A stretch of DNA of 24,156 nt from a virus, in IMG/VR virus record IMGVR_UViG_3300044630_002050, positions 1-24,156 of that record; one strand, given 5' to 3'. Every line of letters starts with the position of its first letter. Within the stretch, counting starts at the first letter, position 1. This document shows, piece after piece, positions 4,395-20,850 of the stretch. Under the pieces are notes generated by a model. That model was not told where the DNA came from. It was given only the letters and a program-made list of their open reading frames with translations, and did no database searches. A program made the translations under genes and the position numbers.

Positions 4395-5711
<1,317 letters not shown>

Positions 5712-8245: not shown

Positions 8246-8776
8246 ATGCCAAGAAAATATTCTTATTACCCAAGTTTTGACGGAAAAGGCGCACAACCTG
8301 GGACTCAAAAACTCGTTGAACTCTGTGGGAAAAGATGGAAAGCCACCAATTTGGGGATTTATTCCGCCAGATTGATGAGAAATTCCAAGACCGCGGGTAA
8401 GAAAATTGGCGACCCAGGCATGGAGAAGTTCCTCAGCGTTCACGCCACTGGAGCCGCATGTGACGTTGGTTACTCAGACCGCAAGGTTGGTCTTGAAATG
8501 TGGAACTGGTTTCTCAAGTACACCAAAGAACTCGGCATTGAAGAGATTCACGATTATGCATTTGATGCCAATGCAAAAGACGGAAAGCCCGGCTATGGAA
8601 GAGGCTTCAGGTGTAGTCGCGGTGAGGGCGAGGCTGGGGTAAAAATTTATAACGAAAAAGATAACGCTGGAAGTTTCGGAGGAAAGTGGCTCCATTTAGA
8701 ACTTTCTCCAGAAATGGCAAAAGACGCTGCAAAGTTTGAAGCAGCATGGCGCGCCCTTCCTAAGCCTGGTGCATGA
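8246..8776 (+). CDS. M15-like peptidase endolysin (176 aa)
   Basis: Predicted peptidoglycan peptidase of the peptidase M15 / D-Ala-D-Ala carboxypeptidase-like fold that lyses the host cell wall. The zinc-site motif S-x-H-x2-G-x-A-x-D is present as SVHATGAACD (His66, Asp73) and the second part as KWLHLELS (His150, with Glu152). The region between, GLEMWNWFLKYTKELGIEEI, fits the helix and strand before the active-site loop. There is no separate cell-wall-binding domain or signal peptide, so a holin is needed for release. Small membrane proteins are encoded immediately before and after, which completes a lysis cassette. The AAGGAAAA ribosome site supports ATG 8246. Confidence 0.82.
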   Translation: MPRKYSYYPSFDGKGAQPGTQKLVELCGKRWKATNLGIYSARLMRNSKTAGKKIGDPGMEKFLSVHATGAACDVGYSDRKVGLEMWNWFLKYTKELGIEEIHDYAFDANAKDGKPGYGRGFRCSRGEGEAGVKIYNEKDNAGSFGGKWLHLELSPEMAKDAAKFEAAWRALPKPGA

Positions 8777-10717: not shown

Positions 10718-10990
10718 ATGTTGAAGAATAAACTCAATGACATTGCGCTGCTACAAGGACAATCACAAAACGACTGTTTACTTGGTAGAGAAATGGCTCG
10801 CATGGATAAAGAAACCCTAGATGCGTTTATCAACGCAATGATGAGCAATGCTTCTGCTTTTCAGATACTTCAGGTACTGAACGAAGAAGGTATTGACTCT
10901 TTCAAAATCACCCACCTACGAGACAAGCGTAGGCTCTGTTTCAAATCAAACAAAGAATGCCCATGCATTAAGGAAGCCAGAAATGACTGA
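10718..10990 (+). CDS. small HTH-like protein (90 aa)
   Basis: All-helical protein with a possible helix-turn-helix, SAFQILQVLNEEGIDSFKITHLRDKRR (seen in two halves: FQILQVLNEEGI and FKITHLRDKRRLC). The C-terminal CFKSNKECPCIKE is Cys-rich. Short phage proteins of the form 'helix-LNxxG-x-S/D-x2-xIxxHRxxxC' are common and probably bind DNA. The perfect ribosome site suggests high expression. The last bases overlap the start of the phosphoesterase gene (ATGACTGA). Confidence in DNA binding is low. Confidence 0.68.
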   Translation: MLKNKLNDIALLQGQSQNDCLLGREMARMDKETLDAFINAMMSNASAFQILQVLNEEGIDSFKITHLRDKRRLCFKSNKECPCIKEARND

Positions 10991-12164
10991 AAAGAAAACA
11001 ATCGTCTCAAAACTTGACAATGTCGCTGAAAGGGTTGAATCTTCCGAAATGAAGAAGAAACTTCTTGGCACACTTGCTGACATGTTGGAGCGCAAGAACA
11101 TTGACATTAATGAGATTGGTGACATTAAAAGGGTCTCCCTGTACCAGTCAATGCTTAAAGACGACCAAGGCGAAGCGCAAATCCACGACCTTGCGGCTAT
11201 TCAATTTAGTCCTAAATGGGAAACCGGCCCAGAATGGCCAGTTATTCAACAAGGTAAGCCTGTACAACTACAAAAGACAACCACAAAACCGAAGCCTCCT
11301 ACGACCTTCAAAACTTGTGTTGTACCCCCTGATATACAGATTGGATACTTCCGAAATCAAGAGGGAGTACTGGAGCCAACCCATGACGAAAAGGCTATTT
11401 CTATCTTCCTTGGGCTGATTAAGGAGTTGCAACCAGAACTAATCGTGATGGTTGGGGACAACCTTGACCTTCCGGAGATGGGAAAGTACCTCACATACCC
11501 AGCGTACGCTCAAACAACACAGGCCGCGATTGATAGAGCCACCATGTTGTGTGCTCAAATGCGAGCAGCCTGCCCACATTCTAAGATTGTTTGGCTTGCT
11601 GGAAACCACGAAGAGCGCATGCCTAAGTATTTGCTTACAAATGCTGGCGCTGCTTATGGTCTGCGCAAGGGAATGACTCCGACTTCTTGGCCAGTTCTTT
11701 CAGTTCCGTATCTTTGCCGTATGGAAGAATACGGTGTGGAGTACAAGCCTGGATATCCAGCCGCCGACTTCTGGATTAACAAGAAACTGAAGATTATTCA
11801 CGGTGACCGAGTTAAGTCTTCTGGCTCAACTGCCCACGTATATCTCAATAACGAAAAGGTATCAATTATCTATGGACACATTCACAGGATTGAAACGGCT
11901 TACAAAACGCGTGAAGACTACGATGGTCCTCGCACCATTATGGCTGCATCTCCTGGGTGTCTTGCTCGTATTGATGGCGCTATTCCTTCTACCCGAGGTG
12001 GAGTAGACCTAGACGGACGTCCTTTGGTTAGACACGAAAACTGGCAACAGGGTATTGGTGTCGTAATGTATGAAGACGATGGAGACCACAAGTTCTCTTA
12101 CGAATGCATGACTATCTATGATGGTTGGGGTATGTACCGAGGCAAAGAGTACAAAGCAGATTAG
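10983..12164 (+). CDS. calcineurin-like metallophosphoesterase (393 aa)
   Basis: Dimetal phosphoesterase fold. Residue numbers are from ATG 10983, which has AAGGA 8 nt upstream and overlaps the previous stop; a longer reading from 10893 lacks support. The motifs are VPPDIQIGY (Asp117), VMVGDNLD (Asp159), LAGNHEER (Asn208-His209), IIHGD (His273) and YGHIH (His299, His301). The first motif is D-x-Q where the family normally has D-x-H, so one metal-ligand position is altered. The N-terminal 110 residues are charged and helical and may be a separate binding module. Phage members are usually of unknown substrate (phosphodiester, nucleotide or DNA end). Confidence 0.85.
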   Translation: MTEKKTIVSKLDNVAERVESSEMKKKLLGTLADMLERKNIDINEIGDIKRVSLYQSMLKDDQGEAQIHDLAAIQFSPKWETGPEWPVIQQGKPVQLQKTTTKPKPPTTFKTCVVPPDIQIGYFRNQEGVLEPTHDEKAISIFLGLIKELQPELIVMVGDNLDLPEMGKYLTYPAYAQTTQAAIDRATMLCAQMRAACPHSKIVWLAGNHEERMPKYLLTNAGAAYGLRKGMTPTSWPVLSVPYLCRMEEYGVEYKPGYPAADFWINKKLKIIHGDRVKSSGSTAHVYLNNEKVSIIYGHIHRIETAYKTREDYDGPRTIMAASPGCLARIDGAIPSTRGGVDLDGRPLVRHENWQQGIGVVMYEDDGDHKFSYECMTIYDGWGMYRGKEYKAD

Positions 12165-12172
12165 ATAAATCT

Positions 12173-12403
12173 ATGAGCGAATCAACTTGGACTTGGCTTC
12201 TGTTCGCTATGGAACTCATAGGAGTATCTGGCAGTTATTTAGTCGGCAACAAGAAATGGTACGGGCACATGATTGTTGCCCTGCATTCTTTTCCCTGGTT
12301 TCTGTACGCAATCATCTTCAATAAACCTGGATTTATCGCTATGTGGGTGCTGTGGCAATGGGTCCACTGGCGAAATATGTTCAAGTGGATGAAGCGTGCT
12401 TGA
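12173..12403 (+). CDS. small membrane protein (76 aa)
   Basis: Start MSESTWTWLL at 12173 is chosen because the upstream extension from 12125 overlaps the phosphoesterase frame. Hydrophobic helices lie at about residues 5-22, 31-45 and 50-66. Conserved-looking features are the loop LVGNKKWYGH and HSFPWFLYAIIFNKPGF, plus a basic tail, FKWMKRA. The E-L-I-G-V-x-G-S-Y-L-V-G-x-K-x-W pattern recalls short phage proteins related to the first helices of PnuC transporters. That relationship is only suggestive. It lies 8 nt after the phosphoesterase gene. Confidence 0.65.
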   Translation: MSESTWTWLLFAMELIGVSGSYLVGNKKWYGHMIVALHSFPWFLYAIIFNKPGFIAMWVLWQWVHWRNMFKWMKRA

Positions 12404-12428
12404 CAGTTAGTTGTGAATAATACATATT
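12400..12428 (+). promoter_or_regulatory. promoter for the proteasome-like gene
   Basis: Perfect -35 TTGACA (12400-12405), 17-bp spacer, -10 CATATT (12423-12428). The -35 overlaps the stop codon of the upstream membrane-protein gene. The downstream half of the -10 overlaps the left arm of the inverted repeat at 12426-12462. Confidence 0.55.
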
Positions 12429-12462
12429 TAGTACACAACAACTTGTAGAGAGTGTACTAAAT
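12426..12462 (+). promoter_or_regulatory. 11-bp perfect inverted repeat, operator or start-codon hairpin
   Basis: ATTTAGTACAC (12426-12436) and its exact reverse complement GTGTACTAAAT (12452-12462) flank a 15-nt loop. The right arm includes the first two bases of the ATG at 12461 and the loop contains the only ribosome-site-like run (TAGAGAG). As DNA it overlaps the -10 and initial transcribed region, an operator position. As RNA it would bury the start codon. Confidence 0.7.
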
Positions 12463-13075
12463 GACAACAATTGCAGGAATACAAGGCGACGGATATGTCG
12501 TCGTCGCTGCTGATACAAGAATATCCTCCCTTGACGACTCTGGAAATGCTTACCAGATATCCACACTTGGGTCTGGTTCAGCCAAGATTGCCATAAATGG
12601 CAAATACCTCCTAGGCGCTGCGGGCGACATGAGGGCCATAAACCTTCTTCACCATGCCTTCCAGCCTCCTGCTCCAACCATAGGGCTAAAGGGGAAGAGA
12701 CTAGACTCCTTCATGACGACCAAGTTCATCCCGGCACTAAGGTCTTGTTTTGAAACCCACGGGTATTCGGTTGGGAACAATAACAACAACACTATTGCTG
12801 AGCAGGATTCATCAATAATGGTTGTCGTTAATTCCACGATTTACATTATTGAGAGCGACTACTCGTGGACACCAGAAGCGTCTGGTCTATATGCGACTGG
12901 TACTGGAGCACCTTACGCACTAGGGGCACTACAAGTATTGGTCGCCGGAAAGAAGTTATCGCCGGCCCAAGCAAAAGCCGCATTACTCAAAGCACTGCAG
13001 GTTTCTGCCAAGTTTGACCCTTATACGGGTAGCCCATTTAACACTTACGTACAAGAATCGGAGAAGAACAAGTGA
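12461..13075 (+). CDS. proteasome beta-subunit-like Ntn hydrolase (204 aa)
   Basis: N-terminal-nucleophile hydrolase of the proteasome beta/HslV superfamily. After Met removal the protein starts Thr-Thr-Ile-Ala-Gly. With that Thr as residue 1, the sequence VVVAADTR places Asp at exactly 17 and Arg at 19, as in proteasome beta subunits. The catalytic Lys lies in SAKIAING (Lys41, eight residues later than canonical Lys33), followed by LLGAAGDMRA, matching the 'AGLxGD' turn. Later motifs are YATGTGAPYALGAL and AKFDPYTGSP, equivalent to the Ser129, Asp166 and Ser169 region. No propeptide is present, unlike actinobacterial PrcB. Length suits one beta subunit. Whether it forms rings, and with which ATPase, is unknown; HslV/Anbu-like or another amidohydrolase activity are alternatives. 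Confidence 0.85.
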   Translation: MTTIAGIQGDGYVVVAADTRISSLDDSGNAYQISTLGSGSAKIAINGKYLLGAAGDMRAINLLHHAFQPPAPTIGLKGKRLDSFMTTKFIPALRSCFETHGYSVGNNNNNTIAEQDSSIMVVVNSTIYIIESDYSWTPEASGLYATGTGAPYALGALQVLVAGKKLSPAQAKAALLKALQVSAKFDPYTGSPFNTYVQESEKNK

Positions 13076-13162
13076 CCCCCATTAATACCTACCATGTTTC
13101 TGAATTCAGGGATATCTCTAAGGAGAGAGAGAACAATTCCTATAGGGGGAGAAGAAGATTTT

Positions 13163-13495
13163 ATGGTCAATAAAGATAGCCATAATATAATTCCCCAATC
13201 AGATAAATCTGTAGATATACAAGATTTAGACCTGTTTGAGTATGCAAGTTGCAAAGGTAAAACTCATTTGATGTTCCCCAAAGAACATAAGGATATTACC
13301 TATATTGCAGAAGCAAGAGCCATCTGTAAATCGTGTCCGGTCCAAAACCAGTGTTTAGAGTACGCACTAGAGTTTCCTGCTGCAGATATGCACGGAGTAT
13401 GGGCAGGACTTACTAGTAGACAACTAGCCGCTGAGCAAAGAAGAAGAGGGGTCAAACCTATTAGACCGACTCTTAGCCAGATGTGGGGAAACTAG
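13163..13495 (+). CDS. whiB: WhiB-family [4Fe-4S] transcription regulator (110 aa)
   Basis: Four cluster-binding cysteines are present: Cys30 in YASCKGK, Cys55 and Cys58 in ICKSCPV, and Cys64 in QNQCLEYA. The family beta-turn GVWAGLTSRQ (78-87) and the basic DNA-contact tail AEQRRRGVKP follow. In Actinobacteria WhiB proteins bind region 4 of the main sigma factor and alter promoter choice. Phage copies may redirect host transcription. ATG 13163 is chosen because GGGGGAGAAG lies upstream; the longer frame from 13094 has no ribosome site. An 87-bp gap separates it from the proteasome-like gene. It ends by overlapping the convergent RHH gene by 4 bp. This is the best host indicator in the window. 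Confidence 0.92.
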   Translation: MVNKDSHNIIPQSDKSVDIQDLDLFEYASCKGKTHLMFPKEHKDITYIAEARAICKSCPVQNQCLEYALEFPAADMHGVWAGLTSRQLAAEQRRRGVKPIRPTLSQMWGN

Positions 13496-18641: not shown

Positions 18642-20099
18642 TTAGTCGGGAAGTTTCCCACCTCGTGATTCCCAAGCATGCTTCAACATGTAAGGGAACC
18701 GTGACTTCGGTATTGCGATTCCTTTTGAGAGCGCATGAAGAAGAGCGATAGTTGCTTCGGCGTCTTCGGTCAGGTGAACTTTCTTTTCCAAACAGAACGC
18801 AGTGCATTGGTTCGCAAGAGTTTCAGAGAATCCTTGGTTCGGTCCACAGACTCCACCGTCTGTCATCCAAATGACAGGAGCAGTTGAGTGCTGGCGATGC
18901 TTCACTGCCCACTCAAGAGCAGGGAAGTCAACACCGTTGCCTTGACCCATCTCGGGCATTTCATCAACCATACGACCCTTGTCAGCGAGAATCCAAGCGT
19001 TCGGATGACCATCACGGATATCAGAGTAAGCGATAACGGTAGCCCCCGGACTTGCTTCAAGAATCCTGCGAACATCATCTTGTGTTAGAGACATTGAACC
19101 CGATGCATCAACGCATACGACTCCACCCATTCCACGCCTCTTATTGTCAAAGATTCGTTTTTGTGGGTCTGTCATGTATCGGTGGATACGGCGTGGTGAC
19201 CGACCAACATTAGAGGCTGTCTTCTTCTTGCCTAAGTTTCCCTTGGCGACAATCGGCAGTGGCAACTTGTCAATCATAAGTTCACCCCAATAAGGGACGT
19301 TACCGTCCATTTTGTCGGGAGTAATTGTTTTCAGTTTTTCACGAAACTCAGTTTCTTTGACTTTTTCTTTTCCGATGTTTGAGTGTTCACGCTTGCCGTT
19401 CTTGTTGTCTTCGTTCTCAACTTCCATAGAAGAATCTTGAGATTCACTTTCTTCTTCTTCATCAGGAGCAGGCAAGCCTGCGAGACGGTCAACCCATTCA
19501 GCAAGTTTCTCGGTGTAGATAAATCCAAATGGTGCGAGACCAGTGCGAGTGTGTACTTCGGTACTTGATAATCCCCGACCAGCCTTGTTCATTTCTTTGA
19601 CTGCTCGCTTGGAGATATCGGCAAGCGCAGAACCCCAAATACGATTATGACGACGGATACCATTCAGGTACAACTTGTTACTCGCAGTACCAGCAGTGGC
19701 TACAGCCATGTACACAGCACTCTTCCAGTCGTTGGTGCAGGCAAGTCTTTCTCCGTCTGCAGTTTCTCCACCGTCAGAGAGGTGAGACTTCACATCAAAT
19801 CCAGCCCTATCGCAGAGCAGGTTCACACGCAATTCTTCACATGCAATCATTCCTTGGATGCTGGCAATTTTTCTGTTTTGCCATTGCTCCCATTCTCCAG
19901 CAGGAGAAACTTTTGCATGCATCATCTCGTGCGCACGGATTACTCTCGCTTGTTCAGTGTCGTGTGCAGGCGCAAGCATCTTGCGTTCCACGATAGAAGT
20001 AGCAGGGATGCCACGGCGTGGTTCGCAGTCTTCAACTTGCCAAGCACCGTGTTCGGCATCCTTGCGACCAAGCCATTCAGGTTCGGCAATGTGCTTCAT
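18642..20099 (-). CDS. VWA-domain protein with N-terminal HExxH metallopeptidase-like domain (485 aa)
   Basis: The N-terminal domain has HEMMH (residues 57-61), a zinc-metallopeptidase HExxH motif, and a likely third ligand in ACEELRVN (Glu88/89). A charged, low-complexity linker (about 212-250, EEEESESQD...) leads to the C-terminal VWA domain. This carries MIDAS residues DASGSMS (Asp331, Ser333, Ser335) and MTDGG (Asp414). Peptidase-like plus VWA in this order matches the DUF2201-type family (metallopeptidase N-domain, VWA-like C-domain). Such proteins are usually encoded next to a MoxR-type AAA+ ATPase. Here the ATPase gene lies directly upstream and overlaps by TAATG. A MoxR-VWA machine for maturing or dismantling a target complex is the likely role; target unknown. 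Confidence 0.82.
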   Translation of the reverse strand: MKHIAEPEWLGRKDAEHGAWQVEDCEPRRGIPATSIVERKMLAPAHDTEQARVIRAHEMMHAKVSPAGEWEQWQNRKIASIQGMIACEELRVNLLCDRAGFDVKSHLSDGGETADGERLACTNDWKSAVYMAVATAGTASNKLYLNGIRRHNRIWGSALADISKRAVKEMNKAGRGLSSTEVHTRTGLAPFGFIYTEKLAEWVDRLAGLPAPDEEEESESQDSSMEVENEDNKNGKREHSNIGKEKVKETEFREKLKTITPDKMDGNVPYWGELMIDKLPLPIVAKGNLGKKKTASNVGRSPRRIHRYMTDPQKRIFDNKRRGMGGVVCVDASGSMSLTQDDVRRILEASPGATVIAYSDIRDGHPNAWILADKGRMVDEMPEMGQGNGVDFPALEWAVKHRQHSTAPVIWMTDGGVCGPNQGFSETLANQCTAFCLEKKVHLTEDAEATIALLHALSKGIAIPKSRFPYMLKHAWESRGGKLPD

Positions 20100-20818
20100 T
20101 AGCGCACCTTGTCAACAGCAATGGCGTCAAGTACAGAACTTGCTCGTTCACCAAAGATAATCTTTGCAGACTTCTCATCACCTAGTTGCTTACGCAGTTT
20201 GTCAAATGCGTAGAAAGTACGCAGTGAGATTCGGCGCTTGCCTGCATCACACATACGGACTGCGTATTCACGCAAGTCGTACGACAACTTCTCAAGCGCA
20301 CTCGGGTGAGGGGCGTTGATTCGGATGCGAACAGGGAATCGGTCAGCGAGAGCCATTGGCAACTCTTCCATGTTCTCAATGTTCGTGGTCATGACAGCAG
20401 AGAATCCGTCTTTCGGACGATGAATACGACCAGTCTCGGGATGTTCCCAAGTCGCAGATTCAGGTGAGTCAAGCATCGCAAGCAGAAGTGCGAACACATC
20501 TCCCGACGCCTTGTCAATCTCGTCCACGATGAGGCGACCACCGTTGAGTCCGTTACCTTCCCAAGCCTTGAGACCAGCACCAGCGACCCATGAGAATCTG
20601 CCGTTTCCGTCAGGCATGAACGCTCCAGTCACATCCATTGAAGTCATGTCTTCTGTGCATACCAAACGGTGTGCGCCAGCGCCGACATTACCAAAGGTGA
20701 GACCAGCAAAGGTCTTTCCAGTTCCTGCAGGTCCAAAGAGGATGACTCGGTCAATCCCTGAATCCATGCAGTCTTTGAGTGTTTGCCAGCACTCGGGTAG
20801 TGTTATTTCTTTTTCCAT
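20099..20818 (-). CDS. MoxR-type AAA+ ATPase (239 aa)
   Basis: Walker A GPAGTGKT (residues 29-36), Walker B LIVDEID (96-102), sensor-1 MTTN (143-146) and the arginine-containing ALADRFP (156-162) are all present. The overall layout matches the AAA_5/MoxR group. ATG 20818 is chosen because AAAGGAG lies 7 nt upstream, so the protein is a little shorter than the raw frame. It overlaps the VWA gene and is the first gene after promoter P1 (20851-20879). MoxR ATPases pair with VWA proteins as chaperone-like remodelers of metal-cofactor or multi-subunit enzymes. The C-terminal lid is short. Probably cytoplasmic and expressed early. Confidence 0.86.
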   Translation of the reverse strand: MEKEITLPECWQTLKDCMDSGIDRVILFGPAGTGKTFAGLTFGNVGAGAHRLVCTEDMTSMDVTGAFMPDGNGRFSWVAGAGLKAWEGNGLNGGRLIVDEIDKASGDVFALLLAMLDSPESATWEHPETGRIHRPKDGFSAVMTTNIENMEELPMALADRFPVRIRINAPHPSALEKLSYDLREYAVRMCDAGKRRISLRTFYAFDKLRKQLGDEKSAKIIFGERASSVLDAIAVDKVR

Positions 20819-20850
20819 TTTATTGCTCCTTTGCAATTGGTTATGACTTC

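Follow-up and report, generated by a model that had tools for sequence, protein, structure and literature searches.

The viral DNA analysed here (24,156 nucleotides, positions 1 to 24,156 of the IMG/VR virus record IMGVR_UViG_3300044630_002050, hereafter the window) encodes a proteasome-like hydrolase of a subfamily that is apparently confined to phages. The analyses below support its family and fold, the conservation of its active site, selection of the purifying kind, placement in a phage-only clade and coupling to a phosphoesterase gene. Judged from fold, active site and selection, the product is very likely an active threonine hydrolase. We favour, as a probable though by no means assured reading, a self-assembling threonine peptidase ring of this phage-restricted subfamily that would work without a dedicated unfoldase.

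A proteasome-type hydrolase with an intact active site

The ORF spans exactly 12461-13075 on the forward strand (204 codons) and represents a real gene (Table 1). Its product matches the Pfam family Proteasome (PF00227, E=1.7e-7), scoring 31.5 bits and hence above the cut-off of 22.4, as well as PHROG_1040 'peptidase HslV family' (E=1e-23). When all PDB sequences were searched with a subfamily profile, HslV, BPH and proteasome beta chains were the only matches (E<=0.001). Given these Pfam, PHROG and PDB profile results, the match is beyond chance. The core of PF00227, a proteasome-type fold with Thr1, Asp17, Lys33 and Gly47, is found in the window protein. A first-pass annotation, made from the sequence alone, had called the gene a phage-encoded proteasome-beta-like hydrolase, and PF00227, PHROG_1040 and the fold matches described below bear this out.

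The residues on which that annotation relied are all in place. Thr1, Asp17 and the Lys of the SAKI motif are present and conserved in phage relatives; this Lys is residue 42 of the precursor and is equivalent to Lys33 after an 8-residue insertion. Arg19 is residue 20, and the GAAGD turn, which carries the oxyanion Gly, occupies residues 52-56. After Met1 the protein opens with TTI, like HslV. The absence of a propeptide also holds: the ORF opens at MTT and this start is conserved among relatives, so that removal of Met alone, as had been proposed, would probably suffice for activation. Such an absence is normal for most homologues of this kind.

Table 1. Features of the protease gene and its neighbours (positions in the window).
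Feature	Position	Strand	Evidence
Proteasome-like (group I) Ntn-hydrolase gene, 204 aa, without propeptide	12461..13075	+	ORF, Pfam, PHROGs, AlphaFold2 model
Thr1 codon (residue 2), predicted nucleophile	12464..12466	+	Invariant in relatives; aligned with residue 1 of mature BPH/HslV
Asp17 codon (residue 18)	12512..12514	+	Invariant, 93/93 and 15/15
Lys33-equivalent codon (residue 42)	12584..12586	+	Invariant, 93/93 and 15/15
T148, D186 and T189, positions of proteasome Ser129, Asp166 and Ser169	12902..13027	+	Alignment with PrcB and BPH
Loop after helix H2 (residues 100-117), pore-loop site of ring-forming relatives	12758..12811	+	Model; role from PMC8665760
Metallophosphoesterase gene upstream (ORF open from 10893)	10983..12164	+	phrog_20266, 3.4e-79; Pfam Metallophos
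Small hydrophobic protein between phosphoesterase and protease	12173..12403	+	Family in 19 loci; window's own clade
WhiB-family regulator gene downstream	13094..13495	+	Pfam Whib, 5.6e-14

Conservation was assessed at two depths. Across 15 very divergent phage proteins, with identity to the query down to 21%, the only invariant columns are M1, T2, D18, K42, G147 and G149. Among 93 phage relatives, D18, K42, A54, G55, G147, G149, D186 and G190 are each found in 93/93, and residue 189 is Thr or Ser in 93/93. T2/T3 was read in 91/93; the two exceptions have MTT just 5' of the BLAST match, and T2 is present in all 93 once these two entries are read from the upstream start. Values of dN/dS range from 0.02 to 0.08 between close relatives and reach 0.19 for one more distant pair, which indicates purifying selection on the protein.

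Predicted structure

A single-chain AlphaFold2 model, built from a 42-sequence alignment, shows a proteasome-type fold (mean pLDDT 88.4, pTM 0.84). The helices are H1 (57-66), H2 (78-99), H3 (150-161) and H4 (168-185), the C-terminus lies just past the strand 193-199, and a loop at residues 105-109 is of low confidence. Comparison with solved structures, suggested in the first-pass annotation, places BPH first (Z 20.5, 2.4 A, 175 residues), ahead of an archaeal 20S subunit at Z 20.0 and HslV at Z 18.9. On superposition, residue 2 of the model falls on Thr1 of mature BPH, E. coli HslV and 20S beta. Many more viral models of the same fold are held in BFVD.

The fold by itself does not prove a proteolytic ring, because the proteasome-like connectase is a monomeric ligase and Anbu forms an open split ring (PMC8665760). 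Compared with the description in PMC8665760, the model resembles ring formers in retaining H1-H4 and in having no insertion that separates H3 from H4. At the pore-loop site after H2, the loop is long and acidic in BPH and short in HslV (PMC8665760). By analogy, the long loop of the window protein at the BPH pore-loop site suggests gating without an unfoldase.

An apparently phage-only subfamily next to AAH

In one scan of IMG/VR, relatives of the gene were found in at least 556 viral stretches, which answers the suggestion in the first-pass annotation that related phages be searched for it. No cellular relative was found in a scan of 84,980 species genomes, a result limited by the search pattern of that scan; one alignment (A1) was too divergent to be used for scanning. 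Nor did the subfamily turn up when a profile was run against 1,093 sampled bacterial genomes, of which 396 were Actinomycetota, 398 Pseudomonadota and 299 Bacillota; the hits that we read there were AAH, BPH or HslV. A cellular or prophage origin was rejected on these two results. At the DNA level the window had no match to phages, and L025 had none to plasmids.

In maximum-likelihood trees, the window protein lies in a phage-only clade whose sister group is AAH and which is separate from HslV, BPH and PrcB; the proteins of DSL-LC01, Pitbull, Pumpernickel and ct2KA10 are on its side of the tree. The AAH clade (support 99/99) excludes it, and a constrained tree uniting it with BPH is rejected (p-AU 0.009). 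Branches are long, which leaves the exact branching order uncertain. The AAH sequences were taken from plasmids and genomes and assigned by host range, not from the alignment of Fuchs et al.; their hosts (Streptomyces, Micromonosporaceae, rhizobia, Azospirillum and some Bacillota) agree with the published AAH range. One rhizobial AAH gene, on a Sinorhizobium americanum plasmid (L111 ~5001-5546), sits inside a nitrogen-fixation region with nifQ, nifS, nifW and a sigma-54 gene nearby.

Genes of this kind are already known in phages. Phage PPH, AAH and CPH have been described (Fuchs, Alva and Lupas 2021; PMC8665760), although no Actinobacteria-specific phage with an AAH protein was reported there, nor a function or partner for any new proteasome homologue. 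Alteromonas phage V22 is reported to carry a proteasome-like or HslV gene (PMC7289586), and so is Salmonella phage pSal-SNUABM-04, which has it without HslU (PMC7823757). A literature search on freshwater actinophage proteasomes returned no relevant papers. In comparison with AAH, PPH, BPH, HslV and PrcB, the phage-only sister group of cellular AAH appears to be new here.

Several features separate this subfamily from each known group. The AAH proteins are its nearest cellular relatives and share its compact fold, MT start and lack of a propeptide, and they too occur in phages (PMC8665760); however, in the aligned AAH proteins the position of Ser129 reads GCG and an Asp166 equivalent is missing, while the window subfamily keeps equivalents of both Ser129 and Asp166, and AAH are found in cells whereas the window subfamily is found only in phages. 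PPH are phage-borne and proteasome-like as well, but comprise about 140 residues without helix H2 (PMC8665760), against 204 residues with H2 in the window protein. BPH provides the best structural match, a long pore loop and no known unfoldase, yet joint grouping in the tree is rejected, as given above. With HslV, after which PHROG_1040 is named, the window protein shares the fold, the catalytic Thr1 and weak sequence similarity; it nevertheless scores only 20.6 bits against the NCBIfam HslV equivalog model (cut-off 157.75), has a longer loop and extra Asp166 and Thr169 equivalents, and comes without HslU. The nearest annotated phage relative, at 45% identity, is the 'ATP-dependent protease subunit HslV' of Actinomycetia phage DSL-LC01; relatives in Microbacterium phage Pumpernickel and Arthrobacter phage Pitbull are annotated 'protease', and all three are of the same size class at 25-45% identity.

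The first-pass annotation had also raised the idea that the protein caps, poisons or replaces the host 20S core. Many actinobacteria possess a proteasome, and the shared fold and the probable actinobacterial host would be in keeping with such a role. The placement of the protein, in a phage-only clade grouping with AAH and not near PrcB, speaks against it. So does the lack of a match to the NCBIfam model 20S_bact_beta at E<=1, and PrcB carries an N-terminal propeptide that the window protein lacks. A dead poison subunit would not be expected to keep its catalytic set intact, the wider phage family is also found in phages of hosts normally without a 20S proteasome, and window-like phages show no second proteasome-family gene, HslU/ClpX-type unfoldase or ClpP. 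Nothing supports an action on the host 20S core, and we consider it highly improbable. Among the options in that annotation, an independent protease acting on host or phage proteins is the most likely.

Gene neighbourhood

In the window the protease gene follows genes for a metallophosphoesterase and a small hydrophobic protein and precedes a WhiB gene, after which come convergent genes including one for a helicase loader-like protein. We examined 94 loci, many of them close kin, so that neighbour counts are not independent; the protease gene occurs in at least three different contexts. A metallophosphoesterase of the same family, which had no match in a search against the PDB, is present in 67 of the 94, and in 48 of these 67 its stop codon falls between -4 and +6 nt relative to the start of the protease gene. 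This spacing indicates that phosphoesterase and protease form a translationally coupled pair. WhiB is the next same-strand gene in 24/94 loci and also stands beside the protease gene in DSL-LC01, where a phosphoesterase neighbour, in contrast, is not annotated. The presence of WhiB makes an actinobacterial host probable for the window phage; DSL-LC01 is predicted to infect Actinomycetia (PMC10611076).

Translational coupling with the phosphoesterase (48/67 loci) would fit a narrow processing enzyme or ligase that acts on a specific substrate together with its co-translated neighbour, and connectase, a specific ligase in the same family, offers a precedent (PMC8665760). The window protein, however, shows no evident connectase-type two-helix insertion and retains the ring-forming helices, and other lineages keep the protease without the phosphoesterase; we regard so narrow a role as distinctly unlikely.

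Other elements of the window were noted in passing. The protease AUG lies within the 3' arm of a 12-bp hairpin at 12425-12463, for which the RNA fold z is -2.6. This hairpin is kept in 4 distinct close relatives, with 97.9% of cells paired and one compensatory pair, covariation that does not exceed the shuffle control, and it is absent from L014 and other lineages. On the reverse strand, 18642-20836 encodes an adjacent AAA_5 ATPase (CobS-like PHROG) and a 485-aa phrog_33218 protein, which recall the pair of AAA ATPase and 'cobalamin biosynthesis protein' in DSL-LC01. Positions 8246-8776 encode a protein of 176 aa that matches neither Pfam nor PHROGs but has an SxHxxGxAxD motif typical of M15 peptidases and is a possible endolysin; the motif lies near the protease in 36/94 loci.

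Partner ATPases and other phage proteases

We searched 15 whole phage records, of which the window-like G001 and G002 are possibly incomplete, for partners and other proteases. Each record has at most one proteasome-family ORF, and any assembly would therefore be a homomer. S49 and ClpP proteases were found in none of the 15. An HslU/ClpX-type (ClpB_D2-small) AAA+ protein had no match in G001 and G002; the only contigs to show one were three from a distant lineage. In these three the AAA+ protein is ClpB-D2-like and single-ring, has an N-terminal domain of its own (L114 3685-5109, L115 3686-5099, L116 2629-4047) and is encoded in addition to the proteasome-like gene. A phage-encoded HslU was rejected as a candidate, since the AAA+ of that distant lineage (C) is ClpB-D2-like and absent from window-like contigs.

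A host ATPase could still be a partner of the window protein: a peptidase supplied by the phage to an AAA+ unfoldase of the host, such as Clp or Mpa/ARC, would retarget host degradation. Kinship to HslV, which needs HslU, points in this direction, as do the three distant-lineage contigs that hold both the protease gene and a ClpB-D2-like AAA+. Against this, window-like contigs have no such ATPase, the ClpB-D2-like ATPase is not HslU and, in the contigs that have it, is encoded a long way from the protease gene, and co-occurring AAA+ partners were not seen by Fuchs et al. (PMC8665760). We consider a host-unfoldase partnership unlikely, if still worth weighing.

A prohead maturation protease was also considered. 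In the L070 lineage, the protease gene lies between the terminase gene and those for the portal, a scaffold-like protein and the major head protein, and the four L070-type contigs searched contained no S78, S49 or ClpP protease; a role in head maturation is conceivable there. The closest kin of the window, G001 and G002, in contrast, have an S78 prohead protease encoded directly after the portal, and the protease gene in the window does not adjoin head genes. A head protease role is thus unlikely in window-like phages, which have an S78 prohead protease of their own, and it was rejected for the window phage on the S78 of its nearest kin; as an account of the gene it seems to us quite improbable. 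The S78 of window-like phages forms the N-terminus of an ORF of 2,100-2,300 codons after the portal (L117 3019-8499, L118 2-4552), an unusually large fusion.

Discussion

The self-assembling peptidase ring that we favour can be laid out in steps, in which we infer peptidase activity, ring formation, ATPase independence and substrates. Host methionine aminopeptidase would strip Met1 and free Thr1, which would be activated by Asp17 and the Lys33 equivalent with the assistance of the Ser/Thr129-Asp166-Ser/Thr169 set. As with BPH or HslV, the subunits most likely assemble into a homomeric single or double ring. Entry may be limited by the long pore loop and not by a dedicated AAA+ ATPase, and targets during infection would be polypeptides that are short or unfolded, or else a small number of particular phage or host proteins.

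More tentatively, and as a broader conjecture that we would not call probable, this phage-exclusive subfamily, widespread in actinobacterial phages, may form a unit with the co-translated phosphoesterase, and with WhiB in some lineages, that remodels host or phage proteins during infection without a dedicated ATPase. The subfamily stands next to AAH and is common in phages of probable actinobacterial hosts, where its protein is small, under strong selection and accompanied by a conserved operon partner. This partner and the strong selection make its function testable by phage knockout, and annotated relatives are present in phages of cultured hosts, namely Arthrobacter phage Pitbull and Microbacterium phages Pumpernickel and LeeroyJenkins.
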